Part shown: positions 16,180 to 55,223 of the stretch, in pieces
Position numbering within the stretch: the stretch's first letter is position 1
Layout of the letters: every line of letters starts with the position of its first letter
Origin: Loxodes magnus
Taxonomy: Eukaryota > Ciliophora > Karyorelictea > Loxodida > Loxodidae
Assembly: GCA_946699065.1 (NCBI GenBank)
Contig: CAMPDV010000708.1
Span: 62,001-126,000 of the forward strand
Reading direction: 5' to 3'
Length of the DNA stretch: 64,000 nucleotides
The notes under the pieces: model-generated
Told to the model about the DNA's origin: nothing
The model's database searches: none
The model's input: only the letters and a program-made list of their open reading frames with translations
Translations under genes and position numbers: made by a program

Positions 16180-16690
16180 AATAAAATAAGCAAAATAATC
16201 AGAAAATATGAATATAAATCTATTCTAATACAAAAAGGGTTTCTATATATAAGCAAAAATTGAACTGCTACGATATGATATGTTCATATTTTTAATAATA
16301 ATACACTTATTTAACAGAAATAGAAATAAAATTGGTTTACAAGCTATTAAATAAATTTAAAAGCATGATGTTTTGAATATATTTACTTATATTTCTAAGT
16401 TATAATTTAAAAGAGCTATTTAATCCTGTTCATTAATTCTTCTAATTATATTTAATATTTAAATATAACCAAAAGTAAAAAAAGAAGATAGTCTATGAAA
16501 GACATTTTTATCACTCTTAAAAGTAGGAGAGAAAGAAAAAAGTGTCAAATATTATCATATATCTTCTTTTAATTAACCCACTTTTTAATGAACTAAAATT
16601 AATGGTTAAATGTATTGAGACAGAAAGAAAACCTTAAACCACAAAAAACGGTAGAAAGACCTAGGAATTAATAAATAGTTGTCCTTCGCT
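16180..16690. other. intergenic, no gene seen
   Basis: A/T-rich, with a short purine-rich segment (16470-16680) that shows no consistent frame. It lies directly downstream of the actin fragment. Confidence 0.4.
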
Positions 16691-16693
16691 CAC

Positions 16694-17466
<773 letters not shown>

Positions 17467-18397
17467 TCTTTATCTGATGTTTCATTGAAAAATTTAAATA
17501 CCATTCAACATTTAATATTAATTGAAAATTGCTTCAACACTCATGGACAAAATAAGAAATAACGATTTCTAATAAAATTAAAATTCTGAAATAATTCCAA
17601 AAGACTTGGTACTAAATATAGAACCTCTTAAGTAATAAACCTTTTCAGCTGACTTAAATATAAATAGACATTGTGAAAAGCTTCTTATTAGTTCATTATA
17701 TAAATCATATTTACTTTTATCTTTTGGTTTAGTATTAATGTTTAGTTCATCAAATGACTGAGTATAAATATCTAAGAGCTTTAAACTTCTAAATTTTTTA
17801 AGGTATTGAGATTTATCTTTGCATTTGAATTATGATCTTAGAAAAAGTCAAAATATTCTAACATGCTCATTAAACCTTTTAAGCTTAATTGAAGCATAAT
17901 GGAGAAATAACTAACCAAACTTAAATAAAAATTTAGCTTAAAATGCTTAGAATTTAGGTAGTTAAGAAGAGCTTAAGACTTAAAATTAATACTTTGAAAT
18001 GAAAATTTTAAACTTAAAGGATTAATCTATCATAAAAGAAGACTCAGAAAATACCTAATTAAATACATTATTAAATTCAGTTATGTAATCCTTCATTCTA
18101 ATTACATCTCAAATCTAAAATTAAATATGCATATTATATAAAAATTATTAATTAATAGGCTACACTAAAACAAATGATAGCAAGTTATTATTAATTATAT
18201 CAACATTTATCATCAACTTTCATACCTTTTACTCTGTTTTATGCATTTTATATAAGTAAATGATTGTGTGTTAATATGAGTATGAATTGATATACAACTA
18301 AATAAAGTTATTAATAAGGTAGAAAAATAACTAATTGTTTATATTTATTCCTAAAGAAAATGCTATTTTGATATCACTAAAGTATTAAATAAAAGCA

Positions 18398-19180: not shown

Positions 19181-19397
19181 TTAAAACTTTTATAAAACAT
19201 TAGAAAGAATCTCCATTTAATTATGCTTTGAAATAAAAATAAAATTTTTTCCTTAACTTTTACCTGCAGTAATATCTTATAGATTTTAACTAAAAGATAA
19301 TAATTAATACATTAATTTAAATTTGATAGGTAAACTGCTGCTTTAGAAAATTTAGATTATCAATTTAATTTATTAAAGATAATTACTTAAATAACCT

Positions 19398-21211
19398 TCA
19401 TTGCTCTAACATCATTTCTCTAAATTTCTCGATACTTATGCTATTTTTCTCATCAAACTAAATTTCCTATAAAATGTCATCTATTTATTCTTCATCTAGC
19501 TTTCCTCTAAAGAACTAGTAAAATTTTTGTTTTTCTATTTTAATTTAATTTCTAGGGGCTAATATTTAGATTACTTAGTCAAGTATTTTATCTTCTACTA
19601 GAATTTAGTTCCATTATAAGCAAGCTATAAGAAACTTATCCCATTCTAAATATCCACTATTATTTATATCTAAAATTTTAAAAATCTATTTTCCTTCTTC
19701 TTTACTTACTTTATACTTCCCTACTTTTTTGAAAGAGTTTAATAAGTCTTTGTGAGAAATTCTTCCATCTTAGTCTCTATCTAATGAAATAAATCCTTGC
19801 TTTAGACTATTAAATTCTTAGGTATCTATTAATTAAGACACTATATACCAGTATATAGCTATAGCTATTTTTTTCTATACTGAAAATTAAAGTAACTTTT
19901 CTATAGATTCCTCTATTAAGTTAGGTTCTGCTTTCATTATGTCTCTAAACCATTCATGTTTGAGACATTATTTAGCACTAGGTCTTTGATGTGTATTAAT
20001 TTTAAGCATTTGCTCTATTAAATCTTTAGCTTACTCTGATATTTCATCCCATCTTTCATGTCTGAACTTTACCCATAATTTTTTGAATTCTTCCTACTCT
20101 TCTTTTAGCTTTTATCTATTTTAAAGGTATTTTTCTATATTATAATTTTTAAAGGGAAAGTATCCAGCTAGAAGTAGGAATAGAATGACACCACAGCTTC
20201 ATATATCACTTTTACAAGAATAGTAGCCAGAAATAGACTCAGGAGATAAATATTGAAGAGTTCCTATTATATTTTGATCTTCTAGTCGTAACTAATTAAT
20301 AGAAAACCCAAAGTCTATTATTTTGATTTATATCTAATCCAAACTCTTTTAGTTATAGCATAGTATATTTTCCAACTTTAAGTCTCTATGTAAAACACCA
20401 ATTGAGTGACAATAAGAAACTCCTTAAAGAATCTATTTTATCACAATTTTAGCCTTTTACTCATTTATTAGATTGTGTTGGTTTATTATTTTATTTAAAT
20501 TATATCCCTTTATGTACTCAGTTACGAAAAAGGTTTTATTTCCCTCTTCGTATATTTCGTAAAGCTTCATAATGTAAGGATGAGTCTAAATAAAAAAGTT
20601 ACTATTAATTTTAATATTTAGAATTCTCTTTAAATTCATTTGCAGTTTTAAATTGATTTTGTCGTCTTAACAGCAACTAACTTTTAGTTTAACTTATTTT
20701 TAGCTAAATAAACTTTGCCATAACTACCTTGGCCTATTTGCTATGCTAGTTCGTAATTTTCATAAATTTTACTATTATTTAATTGAATGAAGCTAGAGCT
20801 GCTTATTTAGAATTTCCAAGCTGATAGAGGACTTTTTCGTTCTAGCATTTTCTTTAGAGGAGATTCTGAACCTAAGTCTGAGATCTGATTAGCAGTCTAA
20901 TTTTTTTTAATGCTTATACTCGTAAGTTGCTCTTTAGGTATAGCTTAATCTCAATCAACCAATCTTAGTAAATTTGAATCTGTTTTTTTTAGTGTACTTA
21001 CACCTTGAGAATTTTCGTTTTTTACATGAGGCAATGGAGTTGTTATAACTTAAAGTTTCTTAATTTCCTTGCAGTCTTAAATTTATTTTTCTTAAACTTG
21101 CTTTGTAATCTAATCATTCTGCTACTACTAGTTAAGTTGCTCCACTTACGAACAGCTTAAACAAGTAAAGAAATTTTAGGACTTTAAACTTGAATCTTGA
21201 TTATTTCCCAT
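19398..21211 (-). CDS. calcium-dependent protein kinase (CDPK), copy 1
   Basis: Ser/Thr kinase with calmodulin-like tail, activated by calcium. The 598-residue product begins MGNNQDSS, a possible N-myristoylation site. The kinase domain (about 165-440) has the glycine loop GQGSYGKV, the Lys of VAVK, HRDLKLEN, DFGFS and SPES. The autoinhibitory/EF-hand tail has a canonical loop DRDQDGRISHKDL, a second loop DINNSGYLEWDKF, and a weaker third. The catalytic-core Trp in SDIWSCG and the Trp in CKWIQRE are TGA; the gene also ends with TGA, at the same place as copy 2. A 17-nt intron (20586-20602) splits codons 203/204. Exons are 20603-21211 and 19398-20585. Copy 2 lies at 53.4 kb in the opposite orientation. 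Confidence 0.92.
20586..20602 (-). other. 17-nt spliceosomal-type intron in CDPK copy 1
   Basis: On the coding strand it reads gtaacttttttatttag. Removing it restores the frame exactly between KLI and THPYIMKLYE; exon lengths on both sides are multiples of three. Copy 2 has a 16-nt intron at the same site. Confidence 0.85.
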
Positions 21212-23896: not shown

Positions 23897-23968
23897 TCCA
23901 CATTAGTCTAGCAGGTTAGGATATTCGGCTTTCACCCGAAAGACCCGGGTTCGAGTCCCGGATGTGGA
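23897..23968 (+). tRNA. tRNA-Glu (UUC)
   Basis: A 72-nt cloverleaf with acceptor stem TCCACAT/ATGTGGA, D-arm with GGTTAGGA, anticodon loop CTTTCAC (anticodon TTC) and T-arm GGGTTCGAGTCCC. It has no intron and no encoded CCA. It decodes GAA/GAG and is not a suppressor of TAA/TAG. An identical gene lies at 49958-50029 on the other strand. Confidence 0.97.
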
Positions 23969-23969
23969 A

Positions 23970-40078: not shown

Positions 40079-43000
40079 TCAGGAAGGGTTCAGAACTTTT
40101 TCGATTTCTTCTTTTGTCAGTTTATGATTACAAGAGTTAGTCATGCACTTTATTACGCTTTAGCTTATATCAAAGTTTTGATTTATTCTCATTTGTAAAT
40201 AAATTCTTAAGCAAATATCACAAAAAGTATGTCCACAGCCTAGGCTTATTATCACATACTTTTGTACACTTTACTTTTTTTGCTAGCAATCTAAGAATAA
40301 CTAACATTCTAATCTCTTTGGTTGAACTTTATTTAAAATTTTTAACTGAGTTTTTTCAATTTAACTTATATCTTCTTTAGAATATTTTTACTTGCATACT
40401 ATGCACTTGCTTCCTGCATTGTAAGATAAGCAGCAGATACAAAATTTATGCTAGCAGCGTAATAGAATTTTAGGGTTTTGCTGCACATCTTTATCAGAAT
40501 TCTGGCAGTTTCAGCATTTTTCTATCTTTTCTAGATACTCTTTTATATCCTAAATCGCTTGCTTATTATACTTCTTTTTACATCAACAACATTTAGGCTT
40601 CAAAGGATTAGTGTTAAACTCTTAGTAGAGACATTCATCACAAATTTCGTGTTGACAAAATTGCTTGAAACCCTAGAATACTTCTTCATTATCTAGTAGC
40701 TTTTAGCAACTAAAGCATTTTTTCTCGCTTAGTTAGTTTTTCTTAATGTTGTTAAAATATTATTTCAACTACTGCTTGCCTTAAACCTCTTAAATCATAG
40801 TTGAAAAGTACCAATTCATTATATTCTCACCTATTATAGTATTCAATTCTTGCTGTTGCATCTTCTTTAAGCATTAGGGACATTAAAAAAGATAATAAAA
40901 ACTCAGATTCTGATCCCAAATTATATCTTTGTTTACCAAGTTTTTCGAAATTTAATTTATCACACAAACTCTGCAAAAATAGTGTTAGCATGTCAAAGTT
41001 ACTTTTAAGTTCTGCAAGACTGTTTTTTCACACTTTGGCCATAAGCATTTAAAAAACTATTCTGATTGCCATTGCTCGAATTAGTATTCTTGTGTTTAGC
41101 TCTTCTGAATACCGTTATATCTATTGATTGCTTCTTGATATAAAAAGTTATAATTTTCTTCCCCTAAAATATATTTAATTTCTTAGTCTAAATTTAGCTA
41201 ATACTTGCAGACAAAACATTTAAAAGCTTTATATCCCTTTTAGTCCTAAAATATTATCATTTTTCCTGAGGTTTCTTTGTATAATTTATTAATCATACAA
41301 CTCTTGCAAAACGTATGCTTACACTGTAAATAAATTAGATCTTCTTATAATAGCATTTTGCTGCATTTACTATTCTAGCATTTGAGTAAGTCACAATGGA
41401 AATTCTAATCATTTTATTACTGATTTACTGATTATTATTGAATTGGCTATTTAACCACTGGCACTTGGCTTATCACTTGTTTGCTTTCCTCAATCATGAC
41501 TTCCTTTTTTTCTTCTCTTTACTAGAACTAGTTTCCTAAAACTTTAACGTAATCATTCTTAGTTAGTTGTAAAGTACACAGATCACACACTGGTTTTTGA
41601 ATTCTTTCTGTTTCTAGCAATTCCAAAAATCCAGCTGTTGCCTAATTAAGTTTGAACCATAAGCATTACTTGCAGAATTAATGGCTACAATCTAGTTAAA
41701 TTATTTAGTCATTCTAATTTTGATATTTACAATTTCTCATTTGACACTAAGAAGAGATTGATTATATCTATTACTCACTTTGATTAATCATACTCCATTT
41801 GTTTTCTTAGATTAGCTTTCTTTAAGCAGCTTATACACTATATTTATCAAATTCTTCCTAACTAACAGCCTATTTGATATCATTTAATTATATGATATAT
41901 TAACAGTTTTAAACTTGACATTTTGCTTTATAACCTTGTTCTCCTTCGTTGCAAATTAGCAAATCTTTGGTGACTAGCATTAAGTAATTAATAAATATTC
42001 CTTTTTGAAGCTAATGTCCACATTCTAGTATTAATTAATTATCTTCATTCGGTTTTTCTTTATAGCTATATTCACTGATAGATTAGATTTACTGCTTTTA
42101 CTCTAATATTGTCTCTTTTGCTTATTTTTCCAAATTAATATTCTATTAATTTAATGCTTCTGATTCTTATATTACTCTTTATAAATCTAGTCATCTTTTA
42201 AAGGCCATAGAGGAATACTTATCGAAGTCCTGCTTACTTAAAACTCATTAAATATCTTGGATTGTAATGATATAATTACAATATTGTATTTAGCACTTCA
42301 AGTCAGAATCCAACTCTCCTTCATAGCATATAAATTTACCACTAGTTGCTATTTTTAAATGCTCTATAAAGCATTTTTTACAATACGAATGCTTGCATTG
42401 AAGTGTAATTAAATCGATTTCTGCTGTTGATAATTTCTAGCATTTGTCACTATCGCATCATTGTTTTTTTACTTTCTTTTGCTTAATTTTTATTGTTTTA
42501 TTTTGAGATTCTTTAGTCTAATCTTACTTTTGCTTAGGCTTTTCCTGCTGAGATATCTATTAACAAGATTTCCTAGTATTAGCAAGCTTTTGGTAAAATT
42601 CAAACTCATTTTTTTCCAAACTTCTTTACACATCTTCAATTCTGACCAGATTTTTACAGTTCTACATCTAACATTGCAAGCTCTTTTCCAACTCTCCTTC
42701 ATATCATATATAATTTCCTTCAGTAGCTTATTTAACATACTCATTGAAGCATTCTTTACAGAAGTAATGCTAGCACTCTAATAAAATGCTTTCGTCCTCT
42801 TCAATTAGCTTCTAGCATTTACTATTCATACAGCTAATTTTCTTTTAATTCTGATTGATTTAATCCTCTTCTTATATATGATACAGGACTGATACTTAAC
42901 AGAGTTACTTTTTTTTCAAATCTTTTTGCTAAATTTTCTTTGCTAAGCGTTAATAATCCTTTATTATTTTTGCTTAAAATTGATAGTTTTAGTCCTTTAA

Positions 43001-44344
43001 TATAAGTGAAGGCTTCTTTTAGCTTTATACTTCAATATAAAATGGCTTCTTATACCAGTCATATCCTTGTGGAAATATCCTCTAGCTTATGTAAATTCCT
43101 CCTTTGAATCCATCAGCTTTGGATTAATATTTGTCGTATATCAAGTCAAAGCGTACAGGCTTATATAGAATATAAATAATTGGTAAGTTGCCTGTTACAA
43201 TTATTGAATCTAACTATATGGAGTTGAGATATTCAGTGTCTATCACTACGACCTGCATCTTAAATTTCAGCACTACTTGCAAGGTACCTATAGCTAACTT
43301 ATCAGCCTCTTTTCCCATTGTTAAGATATCCTTTAACTGCTCTTCAAAGTTTTCGCTTTGATGCTTGAAAGCATCCTAATGTATCTCTAAATAGTTAGCA
43401 GTTAGAGTTCTCATTTCCCAGACTAAAGCTTCATCATAATTATTCTCATTTTAAGCAATGAAAATTTCTAGCTTCTGGATTAGTTTTGTGTTATTTTTCT
43501 ACTGATAAAGGTTTAGCAATAATTGTATGAATTATATCCTTAAGAATTAATGCTCTTCGTTTGTTTTTGAATTACTTCCAGGCCTTATGGAAAAATATCC
43601 CTTTTTGTTTTTCATTAAGTTTATAAACTCGTAAATCTCATTTAAATGAGTAGTGGGTCTAATTAGATGCTCTAAGTATGCGAATCCTACTGCTCTATAG
43701 TAACTATTTCCATCTTTGCCTAATGGTCTATAAGCGTCAAATTAATATTTTATTTTTTGAATTTGCTCTTCCTTTAGATTTTTATGCTTGTACTTATCAA
43801 ATAAGCATGAAATTACTTACCTTGAATAAAGCTAAACATTTTTTTTGTTTATAAATCTATTGATTTATGGTAAAACGTCAGTTGAATTAGTAGATGAAAT
43901 TTAGGATTTCTAGAATTATAGATTCTCCTACGTTTATTACTTTTCAAATACTTGCTTCTGCAATGAAAGTGCTGAGTTTTATTTTTCTATTATTAGTTCT
44001 TCTGATTGGTTTTGTCCTTCTTACTGAATCCAGGCCTGTTATAATTAATTTTTCTGGATTTTACTACGTAATGAATAATCTTTGACAGTTGAAGCTTTGC
44101 TTTGCTTTCTTTAAATATCTTGATACTTTAGTATTAAATTTTCTTATTCCATTTAATCATTCTATAATGTTTCTTCACTCTGCTATTTCAATTATTCCAT
44201 TTCCAATTAAGACTTTGCTTAACTTACTTCACTATCCCTAGAAAATTCGGAAATGCTGCTTTATTTATCTTCTTAATCTCTCATTCCTTCCTCCTAGACC
44301 TCTTATTCAACTGAGGCTTTCTAGTCATAACTAGATTATGACAT
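40079..44344 (-). CDS. degenerate otubain domain fused to an array of RING/RBR-like zinc modules
   Basis: The frame is exact for 1421 codons from ATG 44344 to TGA 40079-40081. Residues 1-190 are Gln/Glu-rich and coiled-coil-like. About 195-410 match otubains: PLGKDGNSYYRAVGFAYLEH (human OTUB1 has DGNCFYRAFGFSHLE), LVWEMRTLTANYL, KEADKLAIGTLQV, PIIYILYKPVRFDLIY. The nucleophile Cys is Ser214 and the catalytic His of PGHYD is Arg398, so deubiquitinase activity is probably lost. From about Cys505 on, around nine Cys modules follow with the RING pattern CxxC/xC...CxHxxCxxC...CxxxxC (CQHYFCKECF, CKHSYCKKCF, CSHQFCKQCL, CKHTFCKSCM, CQHYFCRVCV, CQHEICDECL, CQHKFCICCL, CGHTFCDICL), paired like RING and IBR units. 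Likely an E3 ligase or ubiquitin scaffold (inference). Confidence 0.85.
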
Positions 44345-49199: not shown

Positions 49200-49957
49200 T
49201 ATACAACACAACAAAAGAACAAAGTTATAAGGATAATAATAATTCAAAAACGGATGAGAAAGTAATAAGAGAGAAAGGGAACCTAACTAGATCATATTAT
49301 ACAAGCTATTAAGTAGTTAAAGTGTATTTTCTTATTAATTTTATTAATATGATATTCTTTAGTTTCTTAGCTAACTTGTTTGATCCTTAACTCTTAAATA
49401 AGGGATTAAAGTAAATCACTTATAAAGTGTTGAATTTCTAAAATTTAAATGAAAATGAAAATCATGCAACAGTGTAATTAAGAGCAGTCTGGATTCTTAA
49501 AACTTATAAAATTACGTTGATATCTAATAGACCAGAAATAACGTGTCTTCTATTAAATTTTTGCTTTGAAAATTTAGGCTTCGAATCAAAATTTCAGCGT
49601 TAATATCTAGCTTGAATAAAAAATGACTTTACGTGGCTACTTTTCTAATTTTTAAGATTTTAAATAAAAGCTTCATTTTAATAAAATAGGGAATAGGACT
49701 TATTATCTCTTTTTACACCTCCATTTAGATTAGATTTTAAGTCTTACAACTCAGTTGTTAAATGTGATATTCTATATATAAAAGACTAATATTTATATAT
49801 TTAAAAGCTTTTATAGGAATCAGAATCTCTTAGTGTAATTTTAGAGTTTTAGTTTTTATAAAAGTTCGCATCAATTTTTTCACTAGAAGTACCTTCATTA
49901 ATTTACTTTTTAGATCCTTTTATGAAACCATTTTTAGGAAAAATAATATTAAAAAAT

Positions 49958-50029
49958 TCCACATCCGGGACTCGAACCCGGGTCTTTCGGGTGAAAGCCG
50001 AATATCCTAACCTGCTAGACTAATGTGGA
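49958..50029 (-). tRNA. tRNA-Glu (UUC), second copy
   Basis: Exact reverse complement of the tRNA gene at 23897-23968, over all 72 nt; the flanks differ after a few bases. The same cloverleaf and anticodon TTC are present. With the first copy it is part of a mirror-image arrangement with the two kinase genes. Confidence 0.97.
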
Positions 50030-53048: not shown

Positions 53049-53407
53049 TAATTCTCATCAGAGAAGATTGTATGCTTTATATAGTAATTTAATGTTATTC
53101 ATATAGTAGCATTGCTTCTGTAATCTTTCGAGCATTTAGCTTTTAAATTGTTTTTACTTAGCTATTACGATAATAGTTAATTATAGTAGAATATGAAAAA
53201 AGTTTCAATAGAAATTGCAAAATCTAGAGTAGGATTTAAGGTAAAGGAGATAGTAAAAAGGGATCTATGATTGAGATGGAAAGGGGAGGCTTAATCTAAT
53301 AAATCCAGTTATGCAAGATTCATAGTTAAAAGTATTGAGAATATTAAGAAGAGGGTACAATCTTAAAAGATGACATATTTAATTAATTTTAGTAACCAAA
53401 AATCAAA

Positions 53408-55223
53408 ATGGGAAATAGTAAATGTTATAATTCAAAAGATTTTTACTTTCCTTAAAACATAAACTGCGCTAAGGCTGACTGGAACTTTCAGTAACTACAG
53501 ATGGATGAAATCGCAAGCTAAATCTACGCTTTACAGACTAAATTTTCGTAAGAAGCTGAAGAGCAAAATACTCAAACTAATTAGCATTCGTATTCAGAAT
53601 CTTAAAAGTTAAATCAAATAGAGACCTTAAGCCGTGGAAGTTCTAGGTAAGAATGGGAAGGTAATTGTGATTAATATCCTGCTTAAGAATAATAAACAAG
53701 AGGGCTTCGTAAAAAATGCTCATCAATAAATTAAATACTAGACTTAGGTTCTGATTAATAAGCTTTCCATAGTATCTACAATTTTAAAACTCCTTAATTA
53801 TATGCAAAGCTTTAGATAAACACATCTGATTTTATAAAAGAAAGCAAATCGAAATTTATTTTGAGCTACGATATATTAAACTAAATAGGAAAAGGAAGCT
53901 ACGGTAAAGTATATCTAGCTAGAAAAAAGCTAGACTAAAAAGTATATGCTGTGAAGATAGTAAGCAAATAAAAGAATAGCAAATGAATCAAGAGAGAGTA
54001 AGAAATATTGAAGTTCTTAGTAAGTTTCTATTTAGAATCATCCTAATATAGTCAAATTGTATGAGATCTATGATGAGATAGATTAAATTTTATTCGTTAC
54101 TGAGTTCATTGAAGGATCGAGTATTGCTAGCCTTGTTAATTAAAAGATTCAACTGTCTGAGTTTAAAATTAAGAGTATAATGAAGCAAATTCTTTAGGGG
54201 GTTTCTTACTGTCACTCAATTGGAATTTTACACAGAGATCTTAAACTTGAAAATATGATATGCTAGAGAATTGAGAGTTTTGATAAGGTTTAAGTAAAAC
54301 TAATAGACTTTGGACTTTCGATAAATCAACTATATTCAGATGGATAAAACATTATAGGTACTCTGATTTATCTGTCTCCTGAGTCATGTTCTGGAAAGTA
54401 TTCAACAAAGAGTGATATATGAAGCTGTGGAGTTATCTTATATTTGCTTTTATCTGGAACTTTTCCCTTCAAATAGTATAATATAAAAGAGTATCTAAAA
54501 TCTATTTAGAAACAGAGTAGCAAACATATAGAAACCAGGAAATTTAAAGTAAAGTTCAGACATTAAAAATGGGAACAAGTATCGGAATAAGCCAAAAATT
54601 TAATCTAAAAGATGTTAAAAATAAATCCAGAACAGAGGTTTAATGCTAGAAAATGCTTAAAGCACGAATGGTTTAGCGATCTAATGAAAGTTTAGAATAA
54701 TTTACTAGAGGAGTACTTAGGAAAATTATTCCAATTCTAAGCGAAATAAAAACTAAAAATAGCGGTATATTGGTATATAGTATCCTAATTAATGGATACT
54801 AAAGAATACCATAACTTGTAAGAAGGGTATTTTTCAATCGATCAAGACTAAGATGGAAGGATTTCTTAGAAAGATTTAATAAAGTCTTTTTAAAAGGTTT
54901 AGAGATATAAGGTTAGCAAATAGGAAGCGAAGTAAATATTCTACATCCTAGATATAAACAGTACTGGATATTTAGAATGGGATAAATTTTTAATTGTCTG
55001 TCTTGAATGGAAAAAAATCCTAGTGGAGGATTAAAAGCTTGACTTGGTAATCAAGATTTTAACCTAGAGAAACCTAGGAAAAATTAACAAATGATGCCTC
55101 TATGATTTTTTTAAAGGAAAACTAGACGAAACGCAATTACAGGGTATCATGCAAGAAATAGACTTTGATGCCCAAGATAACATAAGTTAGGATTAGTTTG
55201 AAGAAATAATGCTAAGTCAATGA
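53408..55223 (+). CDS. calcium-dependent protein kinase (CDPK), copy 2
   Basis: A 599-residue kinase joined from 53408-54019 and 54036-55223. It starts MGNSKCYNS, a candidate myristoylation/palmitoylation site, with a Gln-rich linker to about 145. The kinase domain is at about 150-440: GKGSYGKV, AVKIV (Lys183), HRDLKLENM, DFGLS, SPES, and SDIWSCGVIL with its invariant Trp encoded by TGA; NSKWIKRE also uses TGA, as in copy 1. The calmodulin-like tail has the canonical loop DQDQDGRISQKDL, the loop DINSTGYLEWDKF and a degenerate third. The stop TGA falls at the same alignment position as in copy 1. Roughly 55-60% identical to copy 1 by eye, so an old duplicate. Calcium would relieve autoinhibition (family knowledge). 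Confidence 0.93.
54020..54035 (+). other. 16-nt intron in CDPK copy 2
   Basis: gtaagtttctatttag; removal joins LKFL to NHPNIVKLYE, the standard kinase sequence, with no frame change. Same codon boundary as the 17-nt intron of copy 1. Confidence 0.88.

Follow-up and report, generated by a model that had tools for sequence, protein, structure and literature searches.

A predicted catalytically dead otubain joined to nine RING-type zinc modules in the ciliate Loxodes magnus

We analyzed a 64,000-nucleotide stretch of the Loxodes magnus genome (assembly GCA_946699065.1, contig CAMPDV010000708.1, positions 62,001 to 126,000 of the forward strand; hereafter the window), which carries on its minus strand, from 44344 to 40079, an open frame encoding an otubain followed by an array of nine RING-type zinc modules (M1 to M9; Table 1). 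Sequence comparisons indicate that this gene encodes a selected, catalytically dead protein, which exists beside relatives with intact catalytic residues in the same genome.

L. magnus is a karyorelict ciliate with a macronuclear assembly of 706 Mbp that uses genetic code table 27, in which TGA is the sole stop (PMC11441545). Translated with this table (TAA and TAG as Gln, TGA as Trp), the frame runs for 1421 codons to a TGA stop (40081-40079) and contains 85 TAA, 41 TAG, 9 TGG and 6 internal TGA codons; under table 6 it would contain the same 6 internal TGA. Independent support for TGA as Trp comes from two kinase genes located at other sites in the window, where TGA stands at the Trp of DIwSCG, which we take to be the kinase subdomain IX motif. 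TGA-encoded Trp residues are also found in the CCWC and CWNC knuckles. The 143 codons upstream of the stop are free of in-frame TGA, and TGA is described as depleted in this species over about 20 codons ahead of true stops (PMC11441545). A single frame joining otubain and RING array had been proposed in the original prediction, which gave no strand, and is borne out on the minus strand. Its first 160 residues are rich in Gln (21.9%) and align poorly with other intact paralogues.

The otubain domain was expected at about residues 195-410, and a profile search with the whole protein recovered the Pfam C65 otubain domain (PF10275) at residues 176-403 (E = 9.2e-23); residues 165-412 alone gave E = 1.5e-24 and 87.2 bits (curated cut-off, 24.3). 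Searching the PDB with the protein returned OTUB1 chains with E values between 1.1e-12 and 4.7e-12. Ser occupies the catalytic position in the two best chains, and Cys occupies it in chains 2zfy (3.8e-12) and 3von (4.7e-12). In the alignments with these last two chains, Ser214 (AGT) lies opposite the catalytic Cys and Arg398 (CGC) opposite the His of GHYD, exactly the replacements that had been predicted, and Asp211 and Asp400 are retained. The protein has neither the Cys nor the His that characterize an active otubain, and its otubain domain is predicted to be catalytically dead.

To place these replacements in context, the assembly containing the window (705,730,643 bases, from a diploid organism) was searched with the window protein. 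This gave 56 matches from the 33 of 846 first-look candidates that were scored, which were grouped into the window gene and 22 further loci. The catalytic pair at these 23 loci is Cys/His in four (L040, L042, L044 and L045), Ser/His in four (L043, L046, L047 and L052) and Ser/Arg in 15, the latter being the window gene and 14 others (L031-L039, L041 and L048-L051). Cys is encoded by TGC, Ser by AGC or AGT, His by CAT and Arg by CGC. L042 is a near copy of L040 in which Cys and His are present but GHYT replaces GHYD. At L047 (2318-5227, minus strand), a complete tyrosine kinase-like (TKL-like) protein kinase domain (PF07714, 2.5e-58) lies in frame upstream of the Ser/His otubain and array; this array is frameshifted further on, next to a GAA repeat.

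Frameshifts are absent from the window gene, from the four Cys/His copies and from L043, L046 and L052, and number one in L047. Each of the 14 other Ser/Arg copies has 3-10 frameshifts, these totals being approximate because the spliced aligner written for this analysis uses spurious introns to bridge insertions in L031 and L038 and modules that are missing from the remaining 12; breaks shared near residues 477, 666 and 767 fall in well-aligned parts. The 14 copies are mutually close and are set apart, next to the window gene, by a branch with full support, and 12 of them do not have residues 902-1170 or thereabouts (part of M4, M5 and most of M6). Homology to the window covers the 3' flank in 10 copies, over 1.35-1.88 kb and to the full extent of the compared stretches, and ends within the gene in the other four. 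The shared flank indicates that most of the 14 copies are segmental duplicates, and since all of them retain Ser and Arg, both replacements would most simply be older than the duplication. According to the original prediction, relatives with an intact Cys/His pair would mark this copy as an artefact. Such relatives do exist (4 of the 23 loci), yet they do not turn the window copy into an artefact: 15 loci have Ser/Arg in common, 4 more have Ser alone, and the gene shows purifying selection, as described below.

Positions within 4 codons of a frameshift or 6 codons of an intron, together with low-identity windows, were masked before trees and omega values were calculated. A protein tree of 10 of the 23 loci, with all seven inner branches starred, makes the Ser/His loci L043, L046 and L052 the sister group of the window gene plus L031 (Ser/Arg), and the Cys/His loci L044 and L045 that of L047 (Ser/His); a single origin of Ser is rejected on this tree (approximately unbiased test, p = 0.0016). 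A second tree, of 11 rows and OTU columns only, includes three single-RING otubains of the same genome as an outgroup. It separates the multi-RING family (100/100), requires three Cys-Ser changes and rejects one Ser origin within the multi-RING family (p = 0.005). The Cys-to-Ser change thus appears to have arisen at least three times, and Cys would have been lost before His, an order supported by one tree, that of the ten loci.

To assess selection, we programmed a codon model that gives each class of branches its own omega and treats all 64 codons as sense, and fitted it to the 1162 codons of the OTU domain and array; the N-terminal and linker codons are saturated and were left out. The rows comprised 4 of the 14 Ser/Arg relatives (2 for residues 903-1421) and the intact relatives L043, L046 and L044, of which the L044 branch lay at the upper bound in all but the OTU fit, so that omega for the Cys/His class is not interpretable. 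For the OTU domain and array together, omega was 0.17 on the window branch, with twice the log-likelihood difference (2dlnL) amounting to 24.4 when tested against 1 and to 13.5 when tested against the omega of the pseudogenes; it was 0.28 in lineages after the loss of Cys (2dlnL = 255 against 1) and 0.78 in the pseudogenes (2dlnL = 1.4 against 1). Residues 501-900 alone gave the window branch an omega of 0.19 (2dlnL = 12.5 against 1 and 7.7 against the pseudogenes). In the OTU domain, lineages after the loss of Cys had an omega of 0.25 (2dlnL = 76 against 1), so that the dead otubain has remained under purifying selection since its nucleophile was lost. The amino-acid branch length in the ten-locus tree is 0.031 for the window gene and 0.20 for the pseudogene L031. 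Raw identities had suggested that the window lineage was the faster of these two, a reading that we rejected since it was due to misaligned stretches after residue 902 and vanished on masking.

Taken with these results, the reading toward which we lean, if only slightly, is that of a maintained pseudo-deubiquitinase whose dead OTU domain binds ubiquitin or ubiquitin-charged ubiquitin-conjugating enzyme (E2~Ub) and whose zinc array is a multivalent scaffold, set against active relatives. The otubain would descend from a catalytically competent member of an otubain-RING family in the same ciliate, having lost first Cys (to Ser) and later His (to Arg) if the ten-locus tree is followed. The OTU domain may still bind ubiquitin or E2~Ub without catalysis, a proposal for which OTUB1 and A20 are non-catalytic precedents; the nine modules could form a platform that holds partners; and the protein might protect, or compete for, ubiquitin signals that intact otubain-RING relatives would cleave. 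Binding, scaffold role and antagonism are all suggested by analogy. Several observations weigh against this interpretation. Gly397, beside the catalytic His, is changed to Val, and the catalytic site has evidently drifted; the OTU domain predicted without an alignment reached a predicted local distance difference test (pLDDT) score of 36 (AlphaFold), too low for the model to show the binding surface; and the OTU columns alone do not place the window gene within the multi-RING family. Selection on the window gene is also less clear by parts, both for the OTU domain (omega = 0.14; 2dlnL = 5.4 against 1 and 2.9 against the pseudogenes) and for residues 903-1421 (omega = 0.18; 2dlnL = 5.2 and 2.4, respectively).

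The array was described beforehand as about nine CxHxxCxxC modules of RING/RBR (RING-between-RING) type. Nine modules with a CxH core were indeed found, with 68 of 72 ligand positions filled and all eight zinc ligands present in eight modules. M3 is a half RING that keeps pairs 2 and 4 (C775, H777, C809 and C814) without pairs 1 and 3, with one zinc site lost, and the frameshifted relatives likewise do not have pairs 1 and 3 in M3. By similarity M2 is the extra module of the array, the six other aligned intact paralogues being one module shorter at this place. The predicted structure of M1 (pLDDT = 92.9) has as its best structural matches the RING1 domains of RBR ligases, including the helix after RING1, and M1 is predicted to fold like an RBR RING1. 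RING1-type, and not RBR, is therefore the fitting description, since no in-between-RING (IBR) match passed the Pfam cut-off of 24.3 in the whole protein or in any module (best scores, 14.9 bits for M1 and 11.1 for M9). Among the Pfam matches of the protein and its modules none suggested an Rcat, the structure model covering M1. RBR ligases are described as never having one of RING1, BRcat and Rcat without the other two (PMC3940038). A profile of the nine modules found its best sequence match in RNF4, which is not an RBR protein (1.4e-6, over residues 6-42 of 96); its matches to ARIH1 (4.5e-3) and parkin (0.011) covered longer stretches.

A related proposal, put forward originally, gives the dead otubain a role in binding ubiquitin or E2 and makes the RING array an active E3 ubiquitin ligase, which extends or edits chains. 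The conservation of zinc ligands is in keeping with this, as is the likeness of M1 to RING1, the module expected to recruit E2 in RBR ligases (PMC3940038). The position before the second ligand Cys speaks otherwise: across the eight intact modules of the window protein it reads K, K, N, K, K, S, N and D, with no hydrophobic residue among them, and it is I in 1 of 54 modules across seven family proteins. RING E3s usually, though not universally, have a hydrophobic E2-contact residue at this place, and a V occupies it in two of three sampled single-RING relatives. Because this contact is missing from all eight intact modules, E3 activity of the array is doubtful and the claim that it acts as an E3 is left unsupported; given in addition that IBR stays below the cut-off throughout, we regard a combined reader and active ligase as possible but considerably less than probable.

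Loss of the E2 contact, of both catalytic residues and of Gly397 would suit a structural scaffold unrelated to ubiquitin, in which protein-protein contacts are the sole role of the otubain fold and the zinc modules, and the similar constraint on OTU domain and array (omega, 0.14-0.19) is compatible with it. We consider this unlikely, as the protein has otubain relatives whose catalytic residues are intact, and a large number of OTU residues do not vary between dead and intact copies.

That the window gene is itself a decaying pseudogene, with Ser and Arg as products of decay, is suggested by the frameshifts in all 14 other Ser/Arg loci, but is highly improbable and was rejected. Neither the relaxed selection nor the broken frame of a pseudogene is seen: the gene is unbroken over 1421 codons with an omega of 0.17, its coding sequence is better conserved against the pseudogenes (87.9-88.5% identity, 14 copies) than its 3' flank (78.5-79.1%, the 10 copies with flank), and the Ser/His loci L043, L046 and L052 are free of frameshifts. 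An open frame with three reassigned codons proves little by itself, but a merger of two neighboring genes or a misread code in which TGA is a stop is scarcely conceivable and was likewise rejected, given that all six other intact paralogues in the alignment have OTU domain and array in the same order, and given the TGA-encoded Trp residues of the kinases and zinc knuckles.

The multi-RING genes belong to a wider set of otubains. Of 474 candidates in this genome, 150 were scored, which gives at least 150 loci above the PF10275 cut-off, some of which may be alleles; the 14 control genomes gave none. Many are clustered, with clusters on contigs C37, C91, C493, C89, C36 and C22 and dozens of loci at 0.38-1.15 Mb of C37; three of the 150 belong to the multi-RING set, namely the window gene and two on C408. 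A nucleotide pattern for DGNC and, after it, two codons of the form TWY occurred 318 times in the genome versus 12 for a backward control, and its version with an AGY Ser codon 80 times versus 42. Compared by eye, five scored otubain loci outside the multi-RING set show the Ser pattern.

In all three loci sampled outside the multi-RING set (L053 and L055, both Cys/His, and L054 with its neighbor L056, Ser/His), the otubain is followed by one CxHxxCxxC RING, which scores above the Pfam RING cut-off in L053 (zf-C3HC4) and below it in L055. These proteins share with the window protein the order OTU then RING, but one RING is seen in them and nine in the window, and the Cys/His pair is intact in two of the three. 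The recurrence of a single RING suggests that the prototype in this genome was probably an otubain with one RING, of which the window gene would be a large derived form. By extrapolation from these three loci, Loxodes may have well over a hundred proteins that join deubiquitinase and RING in one chain, possibly ubiquitin editors, dead members of which would have arisen repeatedly through Cys-to-Ser changes as substrate-trap readers competing with active relatives; we offer this tentatively, as a serious possibility that stops short of an expectation.

Among known proteins, few to our knowledge join deubiquitinase and ligase-type modules, A20 being the best known. The OTU domain of A20 belongs to peptidase family C64, and its fingers are A20-type, not RING. 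A20/TNFAIP3 is described as having an N-terminal OTU domain and seven C-terminal zinc fingers, with E3 activity in ZnF4, and mice whose A20 OTU domain is catalytically dead as healthy, unlike A20-null mice (PMC10919355). A20 is a known analogue of the window protein in combining an OTU domain with zinc fingers. OTUB1, a single-domain protein, is homologous to the window otubain over nearly the whole domain length, whereas the window protein has Cys and His replaced and nine fused RING modules. FAM105A/OTULINL is a pseudo-OTU with a catalytically dead OTU fold, as in the window protein, but belongs to another OTU subfamily and has no RING array. RBR E3s (RNF216, RNF144A, ARIH1/2, HOIL-1 and parkin) have a RING1 and following helix that the M1 model resembles; the window protein differs in repeating the RING1-type module, with no IBR above cut-off. 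OTUB1 inhibits E2~Ub by binding, without catalysis (PMC10919355).

A literature search of open-licence PubMed Central (PMC) papers found no otubain-RING fusion, and protein database searches gave no match for the whole protein (5607 candidates), the OTU region (316) or the alignment of the seven intact members (6193), in a database that may not hold ciliates. The original view that no protein of this architecture has been described agrees with that literature and requires one amendment, as the protein belongs, as a derived form, to an otubain-RING family of its own genome. Neither the architecture of a pseudo-deubiquitinase with an array of zinc modules nor the family expansion was found described in the open-licence PMC literature.

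Table 1. Features of the otubain-RING gene, in window positions.
Feature	Position	Strand	Basis
Whole coding frame, 1421 codons + TGA stop	40079..44344	-	table 27 translation
N-terminal region, residues 1-164, Gln/Ser/Glu-rich	43853..44344	-	composition
Otubain (Peptidase C65), residues 165-405, catalytic residues lost	43130..43852	-	PF10275, OTUB1 chains
Codon AGT, Ser214 replacing catalytic Cys	43703..43705	-	OTUB1 alignment
Codon CGC, Arg398 replacing catalytic His	43151..43153	-	OTUB1 alignment
Linker, residues 406-500	42845..43129	-	between OTU and array
M1 (500-600), RBR-RING1-type, ligands C505 C510 C524 H526 C529 C532 C558 C563	42545..42847	-	model pLDDT 92.9
M2 (625-725), eight ligands, 43% identical to M1	42170..42472	-	alignment
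M3 (752-850), half RING, C775 H777 C809 C814	41795..42091	-	ligand alignment
M4 (862-958), eight ligands	41471..41761	-	ligand alignment
M5 (980-1078), eight ligands	41111..41407	-	ligand alignment
M6 (1096-1195), eight ligands	40760..41059	-	ligand alignment
M7 (1204-1275), compact RING, eight ligands, TGA-coded Trp1254	40520..40735	-	ligand alignment
M8 (1273-1335), compact RING, eight ligands, TGA-coded Trp1278	40340..40528	-	ligand alignment
M9 (1343-1421), RING-type, eight ligands	40082..40318	-	ligand alignment
TGA stop	40079..40081	-	frame end

Elsewhere in the window, an actin-like gene at 16300-17900 (minus strand) needs a frame change, and towards its end TAA/TAG stands in the place of a Trp and TGA in that of the usual Cys; it may be a divergent actin or a pseudogene. 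Two genes for kinases, at 19300-20900 (minus) and 53300-55200 (plus), have tails resembling EF hands and by eye look like calcium-dependent protein kinases (CDPK). Both have a frame change in the N-lobe, which in the plus-strand gene falls where the translation suggests, again by eye, a GTAAGT splice site and a tiny intron. Two tRNA-Glu genes, at 23897-23969 (plus) and 49957-50029 (minus), lie inside 80-base inverted repeats that are 99% complementary.

Humans have two otubains, and the size of the otubain family in L. magnus, with at least 150 loci scored and alleles possible among them, is in itself surprising. One genome holds a graded series, from single-RING Cys/His otubains through multi-RING Cys/His and half-dead Ser/His forms to dead Ser/Arg forms, together with matching pseudogenes that provide a neutral yardstick. 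Such a series makes the evolution of pseudoenzymes, the order in which catalytic residues are lost and the parallel change of Cys to Ser directly testable.

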